Positions 18,401-24,400 of a stretch of DNA of 64,000 nucleotides are shown here, piece by piece. Within the stretch, counting starts at the first letter, position 1. Every line of letters begins with the position of its first letter. Under the pieces are notes generated by a model that was not told where the DNA came from, did no database searches, and saw only the letters and a program-made list of their open reading frames with translations. Where the stretch lies: contig NC_133230.1 of NCBI RefSeq assembly GCF_040436345.1, positions 20,408,197-20,472,196 of the forward strand. The letters run 5' to 3'. This DNA is from Pagrus major (Eukaryota > Chordata > Actinopteri > Spariformes > Sparidae). A program made the translations under genes and the position numbers.

Positions 18401-21400
18401 CTTTGTGAAGCTGCACTTAGAGATTCATAAAAAACAGTGGAAAGTATTCACATCCTTTACTTCAGTAAAACAACTAATACCACAATCTAAAATGCCCTTA
18501 AGGTACATTTTATTGAGCCGATGTATGTCTGTGCATAATTGTGTGCCAATCCATTCAGCAGATGTTGAGATATTTCACTTGATAAGTGAAAACTTTGACC
18601 TACTGGTGTTGCCAGAGGGAAAGTCAGTAGGGATGACTGAACAACAGACTGACACCACCAGATGAAAATCCTTAATTCTGTTGATCGCTGGTTAAAACAG
18701 ACAAATCACTTCTCTCTCTTGTGTTTGCAGGTGCTGGAAAGTACCTCGCAGTGGCATCAGGAGACACATTTGTGGATATTTACAATGTAATGAGCAGCAA
18801 GCGGGTTGGGGTGTGCAAAGGATGCCTCAATTACATTACCCACCTGGACTGGGACAAGAGAGGTAAACATGATTCCTTAAACACTATTGTCTCAGTAAAT
18901 CCTTGCAAACGACACCAATTATGGATTCAAAATAGTTAAGCATCACGTCCCACTGGGCTTTTTCATTCACAGGAAAACTACTCCAAGTCAACACAGGTGC
19001 TAAAGAGCAGTTTTTCTTTGAAGCTCCTCGCGGCAAGAGGCAGACCATTCCGGCCACAGAGGTAAGCAGGGAGAAAAGGCACAGGAGCAGACGTGGTTAT
19101 AGTGCTGTTGGCCCACTTTTTCCCTTCGGGATCAGAGGAGGCTCGGGGAAGGGCAGTGAAGCATTAACACGGCCCACTTTTCACCAGTATCTTTCTAATT
19201 TTGGCAGTGGAAGTGGGATAGTGTTTGGGGTCCCTGTAATACATCGTGACATTCACACACCTTGGGAGGGAAGCATTAAGAAAATAAGGGTCAGAGATGA
19301 TAGATGCTGCTAGCTCGTGTCTCGATGGAGCTTCAGATGTCCTCCTCTTGTCATCATGCTTGACATTTTCCTCTGTTCCTCACATTCATTTCACTCTTCC
19401 ATCGTTCACTTGTTCACAGAATTATTATTGACAGGCTGACACAGTGAGAGGCTTTTGTTTAGCTTGTTAGTTTATATCACATTTTTCAAATAGACAATTT
19501 TTCTGTGATGGTTGGTGATGACGTGTGCTGTTTTGAGCTGTGCCTCAAGGGTCTATTCTCAGCCCCATTTTATTTATTTTATTTTACCTATAATATGTTG
19601 GTGTTCAAGTTTGCCGTTTGCTGTAGTGCAGTTTTCAAATTGTCTATGTAAATGAATCTTTACTTACTTACTCTCTTGGCTCAGGTGGAGAAGATCGACT
19701 GGAGCACATGGACGTGCGTCCTGGGAACGTCTGTTGAGGGTGTCTGGCCTTTGATCAGTGAGGTCACTGAGGTGACCGCTGCCTGCCTTAGTAACGACAA
19801 GAAGGTGCTAGCAACAGGAGATGACTTAGGATACGTCAAGCTCTTCAGATACCCTGTCAAGGTACGACACACTGCATAAGTCTGTGTATTATCTGGTTTA
19901 GTGTCTTATGACTTAAGGCTCATGTTTAAGGTTTATGCAAATTATATGCTAATTTCTGTGTTAATGTCACAAGTGTTAAACAAATGTTGTCCCTCTTCCC
20001 CTAGGGAAAATATGCAAAGTTCAAACGCTATGTGGCCCACAGCACACACGTTACCAACGTGCGATGGACCCATGACGACAGCCTCTTGGTGACAGTCGGT
20101 GGGGGTGACACGTGCCTCATGATCTGGGCCCATGAGCCTGAGGGCCACCGGGAATTCAAACAGTGTGACAGCGAGGAGTCGGACATCGAAAGCGAGGATG
20201 ACGGAGGTGAGAGATGAGCTTCCCTCTGAGGTTTTTTTCTCATCAAATGTTTCTGTTGCTAAAATCCGTGTCATTCCTGTCTTTCACCAGGTTACGACAG
20301 TGATGTGACGAGGGAGAATGAGCTCAACTACACCATCAAGGCCTTATCCACCAACATGCGACCTATGACGGGTGTGAAGCCCCACTTGCAGCTGAAAGAA
20401 CCCTCTGTGGACGAAAGGTATTCCTCAGTGAAGCTACGATGTTGCAGAAAGATGCTTCTGAGCAGTCAGAAAATAACTTTTAGTACGAAAAATAAGGCTT
20501 CTGCGTCAAGATGAAGCCAAACCTGCCTCCTTCAGTCAACATTTTCTTTTCCTGCGTGGGATTCTTGCCCTGTTCCTTGAAATAACTCAGCCTTTTCTGC
20601 TCTTCTTCTTTCCTTCAATGGCTGTCCATCTGTCATTATCCTGCTTCGCTCTTTAATTCTGCTTGAAGACAAGGGGTGGTCAGGTAAGCTCTTGTGTTCA
20701 TGTACAGTATGTTGATATTCAATAAAAGAAAAAGTAGTGGTCATGGTTGAAATATGTATGATTATAGAGGACTACATTCAGAGACTATAACACATGGTCA
20801 GCCTACTTCCTTCACAATGAGCAAAAACAAAAGAAAGATATCGAGACTCAAAAAGTGTCAAAAAGAATCTCGGAGTTTTATAGAAATGCCTTCATGTCTG
20901 TTTCCTCAGTAAAAACCTACCAGAGTTAATTAATTATTCACATTTCAGTGTTTTTTTTTCCTCCCACATACAAACTTGTTAATTCACTTGCTAATGAGCG
21001 GCTGCTCTGATTGACAGGACAAATTGGGCTAAAAGTTAAATTAGAGCTTGAATTTAATTTATTTTTCCAATTTAATTGTCAGCAGAACAAAGTAAATGGG
21101 TTGTGCAAAAAGTGTTTTTAATAGTGAGTGACTCTGGGGAAATGGCACAATTAATGTGGATTAACTTCACACATCAAACTAGAGGGAATGTCAGACATGT
21201 ACTCATATAAAGATATTTGAAGTTAGTATTGTTTATATTTCTGAGCTGAAACAGTGCCGACAATCATGATCAAATCTTCCATCATCATAATCTGTCTTCA
21301 AGTGTGTCACAGACCTTTGGTGTTCCAGCTTTATTGATTTCCACACTAGTTTTATTTCTTTTTTTCTTTTTTGCAAGCATCCACGCAGCATCAGCACGGT

Positions 21401-24400
21401 GCTGACTCATGTGTTTTATGTCCTCAGTGGCTGAGGTGTTGTGTTTCCTGTGTGTCCACCGGGCAGCAGTGAATGCTGTGAGAAACCTTTTTTCTAATTC
21501 TTGTTTTTTTTCTTTGTTATTGCTGCCATGAAGAGGGTCAAGGTAAGCTACTTACATTCTGAGCACAGGTTTTTTTTTAGACGTCTCTAGATTAAATATG
21601 AAGCGAGTGGCACAGGGGAAAAGTTTTCTTTCAGGGATTTCAGTAAGAAAGCCCTTTCTGGCAGAAAGCTTTCAGCCTTCAAGGCTTTCTAACACGTGGG
21701 GAATAATGTGAAAAGGTCTATTTAAAAGGTAGGGAAGGTGATTCTGGAGAAAGACAGTCGATTGTTGAGTCTCATTCCCAGGTCTTCAAATACCAACATT
21801 TTGGGTCAGTATTCAGCCCTAAATTCTAAACCAAAACATCGTTATTTGACAACCTGGGAATGAGGTTCAACAATTAACCATCTATCTCCATAATCGCCTT
21901 CCCTTCCTTTAACCCAAACCATGATCTTTTCCTAAACCTAACCAAGTAGTTTTGGTGGCTAAACCTAACCAAACTGCAACTGACTTGTGTCTACTGAAAT
22001 GTTCCCCCTCCGGCACCTTATTCTTGTCCTTTCATTCCTTTGCTGGTTATACAAACTCTGTACACACTTGTGATACAAGAAGCCTTGACATTGAAAAATA
22101 AAAATCTTCTCATCTGCTCATTCATCACACCTTAACTAGTGTAACTCCTCCTTAACTAGTGTAAAAAAAAAACATGTTTTTTCCTTTCTTTTGAGATAAA
22201 ACACCTCATATTCGTGTGCACATATGAGCAGATGTTTATGGAATATTTTTCAGCAGCATCATTATTGTCATCATTATCATGATAAGCAGCTCTGCGGCAG
22301 CCATCTTATCCCAGCCGTCTGTTTCAGGCCTCCTGTCAGCAGAGCGCTGCCACAGCCGGAGAAGCTGCAAACCAACAATGTTGGCAAAAAGAAGAGACCC
22401 ATTGAGGTAAGAAGGACCTCACGTTCTTATTGAAATGCAACAAACTTGTAGATATATATATACAGATCGTCAACTTTAAAGATATAATATGGACATTCCC
22501 ACAAATATGTTTCCAAAAATGTTCAAAGCCAGTGAAATGTGTAACTTTAATCAAGATAAGGGTGCATTTCAATTGGTCGCTATAACAAACGTGACTAAAC
22601 ATCGAACTTTAAAACATTACCTCGACTATGAACATTTCTGCCTGAGGCATGTCAGATAGATTGTCGTCCACAATGGTGGCTGTTAAACAATGAAGACTCC
22701 CATGATCCCACGCTACTTCATAACATCATCAAACTAAGTCTTCTGTTTTCATTGTTTTGATTGAGAGGCCCCTAGCAGCAGAAATAATGTGCATTTAAGT
22801 AAACAGAAGCAGTCTTATCTCTGTCAGAGCAGCAAGACATTCAAAAATGCTGCTTTCTAATATGATTATTTGAGCTGAAGACACCGTGTGCTCATATTCT
22901 GTCCAGACAGCCTCTCTCGGGACTCTAATCGAATAATCACGTGTTACTTCAGCCTGCAGCTGGCTCCGAACATCTTAGTTGTCATGGTGTTGACCTTTCT
23001 GACTTTCTGGCGATCTCTTTCTGACTCTCCCGCAGGACCTGGTGTTGGAGCTGGTGTTTGGTTACCGTGGCAATGACTGCCGCAACAACGTGCACTACCT
23101 GAACGAGGGGGCGGACATCATCTACCACACAGCCTCAGTCGGCATCGTGCTCAACTTGACGACCTGTAAGTAGACAGAGTGCAGTCTGGAACACTCTCTG
23201 ACTGTGTTACTATTTCCTACCTGAAAGCAAGTATAACATATATGTGTTTGTATTTTTGTATCTGTGTGTGTGTGTGGGTTGGGTGTGTTTCCTCACAGCC
23301 TGCCAAAGTTTCTATGTAGAACACAGTGACGACATTCTGTGCCTGACAATCAATCAACATCCCAAATTCCCCAACGTGGTGGCAACTGGCCAAGTAGGTA
23401 TGTTTGTGAGAAGTTGACCTCCCGTGTCACCAGCCGCCTCATTTTTTCTTCCCTCTATCCTGTGCTGTGCGTTGTGCAGGGGGATTACTGTACAAGCCAG
23501 ATGGCCAGCCCCCTCCTGCAAGCGTATCCGTACTATAAAGCAGCTAACGAGCAAAATTACAATTTTTGCATACATGAATAGTCGTGGGATTGTCACGCAT
23601 GCTGCATTTTTCACAGACAGACACACATAAACAACTCCGTGCTGGCAGAAATTTAATGACAGACGATTTGTGATAGCAGTTCTATCACATTTTGTACTCA
23701 TAGCTTTTATGAATTCTGCATAATTTGTGTAAATTATCTAAATATGTTGAAAGTAGAAGGTTTTGTCGAATGTAGGAACCACTATTGCTCAGGAAGTCAC
23801 AAATAATTCACAAATAATTTGTTGGTTCTGTCAGATAATCTGATTTTCCTTGTTTGCAGGTGATACTGGTGACATGTCAGGTAAGGACGTTTTAGAATTA
23901 GTCTTAATGTAAAACAGGAAACATGGTGTTAATAACTATTGACAGAAAATCAGTCACTTTTGGCTCATTATATACTCTTTGTTACTGCCATCTAGTGGCC
24001 AGTTGATTTGAGGTCTTTACCTCATGCAAACTTGGTTATTTCTATGAATGATTTTTGGAAGTGTTTCCTCTTTCTAGTAGATTCACATCTCGGTTTACAT
24101 GATTTAAAAAGTTATGAAGGCATGTCTAAACTCTAGCCTATCCCTTTTTAGTCGTAGGGATTTGCTGAAGGAGAAGTTCACCCAAAAATGAAAAATTTCA
24201 ATTTGAGTATAGAATTTACAGAAATCCAGTTAACAAAGCAACCCAGTAATAAGGTTTTAGGAAATTAGGTTAAAGGTTAAAACATGACACAAGTCATACT
24301 CAAGGAAGAAAGAAGATCTTTAATAGTAGTTACGAGGATTTAAACAAATAATTCCTTTCCCTTCTTTGTCCGTTAGCCACGTCTCCATCCATCCATGTGT

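Follow-up and report, generated by a model that had tools for sequence, protein, structure and literature searches.

Do two short pieces of 15 and 9 nucleotides (nt), lying inside one intron of a gene for a microtubule-associated protein, serve Pagrus major as coding exons? The question arose from a reading of a 64,000-nt stretch of this genome (C16:20408197-20472196, here called the window) made from its letters alone, which described the pieces as tandem, in-frame microexons of eml5 and suggested that UGC motifs at their acceptors tune them in neurons. We find that the two eml5 pieces look real, because a paralog, eml6a, preserves a matching pair in the corresponding intron. Our preferred explanation, to which we assign a probability of about 0.72, is that eml5 truly uses them as coding cassette microexons, an ancestral tandem pair whose neural inclusion would be driven by SRRM3/4.

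The window gene has three HELP motifs and combines HELP with EML beta-propeller domains, the arrangement of the EML5/EML6 type (three-TAPE EML proteins). The eml5 exons and motifs given here lie on the plus strand of the window. The coding exon upstream of the pieces (20291..20417) ends in ..KEPSVDE-AG in phase 2, the downstream one spans 22328..22407, and both have homologous exons in the two paralogs described below. Between 20417 and 22328 eml5 has a single intron of 1,910 nt, which hosts both pieces. The 15-nt piece, ACAAGGGGTGGTCAG (20669..20683), encodes R-QGVV-R and is preceded by ..ctgcttgaag, and the 9-nt piece, AGGGTCAAG (21534..21542), encodes R-GS-R and is preceded by ..ttgctgccatgaag; each has a weak gAAG acceptor and is followed by a gtaagc donor. 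The coordinates, the AG/GT edges, the matching phase and the insertion of QGVVRGSR before PPVSR, as given in the sequence-only reading, all match the sequence exactly. Splice products with 0, 9, 15 or 24 nt inserted are open and in frame in 4/4 cases, giving DER-(QGVVR)-(GSR)-PPVSR. Each piece is thus a multiple of three in length and keeps the frame whether included or skipped, as expected of a cassette microexon. When the joined exons were translated (246 residues), Pfam assigned residues 2-101 to Beta-prop_EML_2 and residues 201-240 to HELP; the insert falls at 170-177. It thus sits in the linker that joins the second EML beta-propeller to the third HELP motif, which bears out the location proposed earlier, between WD40 unit 2 and HELP unit 3. 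The exon with the third HELP motif lies at 23036..23165, its end being taken from a splice model.

Two other genes in the genome carry three HELP motifs, one on contig 15 and one on contig 1. We read these as eml6a and eml6b, respectively, and the window gene as eml5. The equivalent intron of eml6a measures 5.25 kb and contains a 15-nt candidate, GCAGGGCATTGTCAA (C15:30850858-30850872; R-QGIV-K; donor GTAAGT), as well as a 9-nt candidate, GGGATCCAG (C15:30853954-30853962; RGSR; donor GTAACA). The eml5 and eml6a pairs agree in length, order and phase, and the peptides match except for V/I and R/K: RQGIVK is the counterpart of the longer eml5 piece and RGSR that of the shorter. The 15-nt pair scores 25 and the 9-nt pair 20, for a joint score of 45, while the next best pair of the same lengths scores 7. 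A joint score of 45 was reached in 0/20,000 dinucleotide-shuffled intron pairs and in 0/467 pairings for which one or both members came from elsewhere in the two loci, counting exons and intergenic pieces. This strict version of the test leaves out exons made of simple repeats in both members and uses an enlarged set of pieces, changes made once a repeat-blind version had been seen; the repeat-blind version gave 1/10,000 shuffles and 1/199 pairings, and that one pairing depends on a TG repeat. The earliest version, in which the paralog intron edges were off by 1-2 nt, gave 0/1,000. Taken alone, the 15-nt pair (score at least 25) was equalled in 23/20,000 shuffles and 0/467 pairings in the strict version, in 5/1,000 shuffles with the edges off by 1-2 nt, and in 8/10,000 shuffles and 4/199 pairings in the repeat-blind version.

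The pattern of substitutions is that of a conserved peptide. All differences between the 9-nt exons of eml5 and eml6a are silent (3/3), and of the six nucleotide differences between the 15-nt exons three are silent, two change V to I and one changes R to K, so that in this comparison of paralogs within one genome the changes are mostly silent or conservative. When the two introns were compared by blastn, no plus-strand match was found, and the two minus-strand hits had E values of 0.22 and 4.3. The frame and the matched paralog pair together support the description of the pieces as in-frame tandem microexons. In eml6b (C1:474000-513999) the equivalent intron is only ~90 nt long, too short to hold the 15 + 9 pair.

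We also scanned the three genes for further conserved microexons of 9-51 nt at a strict score, leaving out intron pairs with a member no longer than 120 nt. Among 37 intron pairs of eml5 and eml6a and 9 of eml5 and eml6b, only the 15-nt exon rose above the cut; since the scan at this cut misses the 9-nt exon and the 21-nt exon described next, it is no census. This third candidate microexon, GTGATACTGGTGACATGTCAG (23860..23880; 21 nt, phase 1; G-DTGDMS-A), lies 3' of the third HELP motif and leaves the frame intact when skipped. The same intron of eml6a holds a 21-nt candidate encoding GDVSELPA (C15:30856441-30856461), and that of eml6b one encoding GDITDLPA (C1:482322-482342), kept in this copy though the 15 + 9 pair is missing. 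The three-way score of the 21-nt set, 72, was reached in 0/10,000 shuffles (shuffle maximum 41) in a test that varied neither the peptide of the window exon nor the 21-nt length. Neither eml6 copy has a TGC in the last 20 nt before this exon, and the sole TGC in the window copy is the TGCAG of the acceptor itself.

What might control the linker pair? TGC does lie within about 20 bases of both window acceptors, as had been noted: at -9 of the 15-nt exon (20660..20662), and ahead of the 9-nt exon as TGCTGC (21521..21526), with starts at -13 and -10. We compared the acceptors of the 15-nt and 9-nt exons of eml5 and eml6a (n = 4) with 45 control acceptors from modelled joins of the three genes scoring at least 3; weaker and unmodelled joins were dropped, and the controls are therefore biased to YAG and good tracts, so that comparisons of strength lean to the reading that we favour. 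TGC occurs within the last 20 nt of 4/4 microexon acceptors and 17/45 modelled acceptors (Fisher 0.028). It starts at -14 to -9 in 4/4 and 5/45 (0.0006), a range that was picked post hoc, with the five controls counted by hand. Three of the four microexon acceptors are AAG or GAG and not YAG, as against 1/45 controls. Furthermore, PTB-like tetramers upstream of the acceptor number 3, 5, 4 and 4 versus a control mean of 2.13 (p 0.008), and AG-free stretches are longer at microexon acceptors than at controls (p 0.03). Scored with an improvised frequency matrix, the four microexon acceptors reach 1.2, -0.8, -2.6 and 5.2 (control median 4.1), and their donors 7.1, 7.0, 5.3 and 2.9 (control median 3.7). 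The 3' splice site is weak for both window microexons and for 3/4 over both genes. On these sequence comparisons we regard the claim of UGC motifs at the microexon acceptors as moderately supported.

Several observations weigh against our preferred explanation. Ordinary acceptors often carry TGC too, the bias of the controls enters the comparisons of acceptor strength, and the four sites form two homologous pairs and are therefore not independent cases. In eml6a the 9-nt exon combines an acceptor of normal strength (5.2) with a weak donor (2.9), and no UCUCU was found by eye in the 60 nt upstream of any of the four microexons. The 21-nt microexon is conserved without a close UGC in either eml6 copy, so microexon conservation does not need the motif, and eml6b does without both linker pieces, so that the insert is dispensable there. 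A loose splice filter passes seven stop-free, phase-matched candidates of 3-30 nt in the window intron, and anatomy by itself is therefore not conclusive. This last count is what would favour a chance origin, in which the intron simply holds several microexon-sized AG...GT pairs and two of them were picked. Given the matched paralog pair, and its recurrence at 0/20,000 and 0/467 in the strict test and 1/10,000 and 1/199 in the repeat-blind one, we consider chance extremely improbable.

The remaining alternatives accept the exons and differ in how they would be used. They could be small constitutive exons, included almost everywhere, whose UGC matches are incidental. This would suit the window donors, whose scores of 7.1 and 7.0 come near the 95th percentile of modelled donors (7.12), as well as the TGC seen at 17/45 ordinary acceptors, and in mammalian EML5 records the insert may belong to the main form. 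It sits less well with non-YAG acceptors in 3/4 cases, longer AG-free stretches (p 0.03) and the excess of PTB-like tetramers, or with the absence of both pieces from one eml6 copy, and overall we judge it unlikely, if worth keeping in view. Alternatively the microexons might be regulated by a PTBP/RBFOX or testis programme instead of SRRM3/4. PTB-like tetramers are indeed enriched, and the eml6a intron has three sites for TGCATG, an RBFOX-type motif. EML5 levels are also reported to be high in testis and brain (PMC9037033). However, GCATG is found nowhere in the window intron and an acceptor-close UGC is present in 4/4, and control by such a programme strikes us as decidedly improbable.

We therefore return to an ancestral pair under SRRM3/4 control. 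The pair is most likely older than the duplication that separated EML5 from EML6: eml5 and one of the eml6 copies would have retained what the EML5/EML6 ancestor passed on, and the second eml6 copy, with its very short intron, would have lost it. We infer common descent here in preference to a later exchange between the genes. The weak acceptors (AAG or GAG for YAG in 3/4, with tracts open to PTB binding) would lead to skipping by default, the UGC motifs ~9-13 nt upstream would recruit SRRM3/SRRM4 in neurons, and the mostly strong donors would complete exon definition. Inclusion would add up to eight residues, QGVVRGSR, with two extra positive charges, to a linker of ~100 residues between the second and third TAPE domains, where the insert would probably tune the flexibility of the third domain or its contact with microtubules or partners. 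The genome has at least two matches to SRRM_C (PF15230), at C5:19782897-19783052 and C13:11125770-11125892. We take this domain to be the C-terminal domain of SRRM3/4-type proteins, and the two loci are probably srrm3 and srrm4. More tentatively, the third TAPE unit of EML5/EML6 might carry a whole ancestral set of microexons that predates the vertebrate duplication, with 15 + 9 nt in the linker and 21 nt in the propeller after it, its members working in combination as a neural switch for a unit that binds microtubules. To our knowledge the EML6 members of such a set are largely unannotated.

A different origin of the linker pieces, as remnants of the pre-HELP segment of human EML1 (4ci8), was considered and rejected. 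A phmmer alignment to human EML1 sets the insert-bearing linker opposite this segment, GYVKMFLRGRPVTM. The insert raised the score in 1/8 comparisons (eml5 versus EML1, from 55 to 63), a rise equalled by 27% of the permuted inserts and 28% of the random ones, and gave no gain in the other seven (eml5 versus three fish EML1-4-type segments, and all four with eml6a).

The proposed mechanism draws on known systems. SRRM3/4 targets are characterized by weak 3' splice sites and UGC motifs, according to a review (PMC10551640). A zebrafish study gives UGC with a UC repeat or similar tract at 42/95 conserved microexons and a similar layout at 44 more (PMC12626420), UCUCU is named beside UGC in another paper (PMC13080001), and a zebrafish-mouse comparison lists 402 shared microexon pairs (PMC7821500). 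Like the SRRM3/SRRM4-dependent neural microexons of vertebrates, as described there (PMC10551640, PMC12626420), the EML pair falls within 3-27 nt, is in frame, has UGC near a weak 3' splice site and encodes a conserved peptide; unlike them, it lacks UCUCU within 60 nt upstream, and its neural inclusion is a prediction. EML5a and EML5b, brain splice variants of the same gene (O'Connor 2004, as cited in PMC12182296), are C-terminal truncations, whereas the present pair consists of linker microexons. The microexons meA and meB of PTPRD offer a further likeness, in that several microexons can be combined and meB falls at a domain junction (PMC13080001), much as the EML5 pair falls between TAPE domains. 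PTPRD, in contrast, is a synapse organiser with known ligands, while EML5 is a microtubule-associated protein. We know of no partner of the EML5 insert.

A search of the open literature for EML5 or EML6 alongside a word starting with 'microexon', a search that excludes the spelling 'micro-exon' and supplementary tables, returned nothing, nor was the peptide string QGVVRGSR or any of three variants found there. Among the papers listed for any EML name together with microexons, none uses the word, and EML5 and SRRM4 are co-mentioned only as single entries of a gene table in one paper. Mammalian EML5 proteins have an insert of this sort, which the main EML6 form is not known to share, and published microexon lists may well include these exons. 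It is doubtful that standard gene predictors would overlook both pieces, as the sequence-only reading expected. What appears new is the matched EML6 pair and the three-microexon set, neither of which we have seen stated in the literature. Annotation easily overlooks exons as short as 9 and 15 nt, and for EML6, too, the matched pair predicts isoforms. Should the set prove neural, it would connect a three-domain microtubule protein with the SRRM3/4 programme and would provide a natural experiment, with eml5 and one eml6 carrying the 15 + 9 pair and the other eml6 lacking the pair but holding a 21-nt candidate.

The naming of the paralogs relies on their surroundings. The genome comprises 786 Mb in 25 contigs. 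The peptide neighbouring the contig-15 gene fits spectrin beta, brain 1 best, and the contig-1 flank carries the same spectrin stretch at 93% identity over 60 residues. We tentatively named the two copies eml6a and eml6b because both lie near an SPTBN1-type spectrin, together with the human gene order, which would make the spectrin-side copies EML6 and the window copy EML5. Over a 111-residue stretch eml6a and eml6b share 79 matching positions, and they share 73 and 68, respectively, with eml5. In the surveyed flank of eml5 (window 30579-60404), Pfam identifies an ML-domain (NPC2-like) gene at ~33.4 kb, an F420_oxidored-domain gene at ~55.2 kb and a GOLD_2 gene at ~60 kb, and by eye a stretch at 30.6-30.8 kb resembles ISCA2, without a Pfam match. 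Beyond this genome, the best 80 of 140 relatives found with an EML5 propeller exon were all bacterial or archaeal by title, and among viral contigs one matched over 20 residues. Near eml6b, the interval C1:454000-463999 holds two long open frames (1,269 and 763 codons), which by eye look like the endonuclease/reverse transcriptase of a long interspersed nuclear element.

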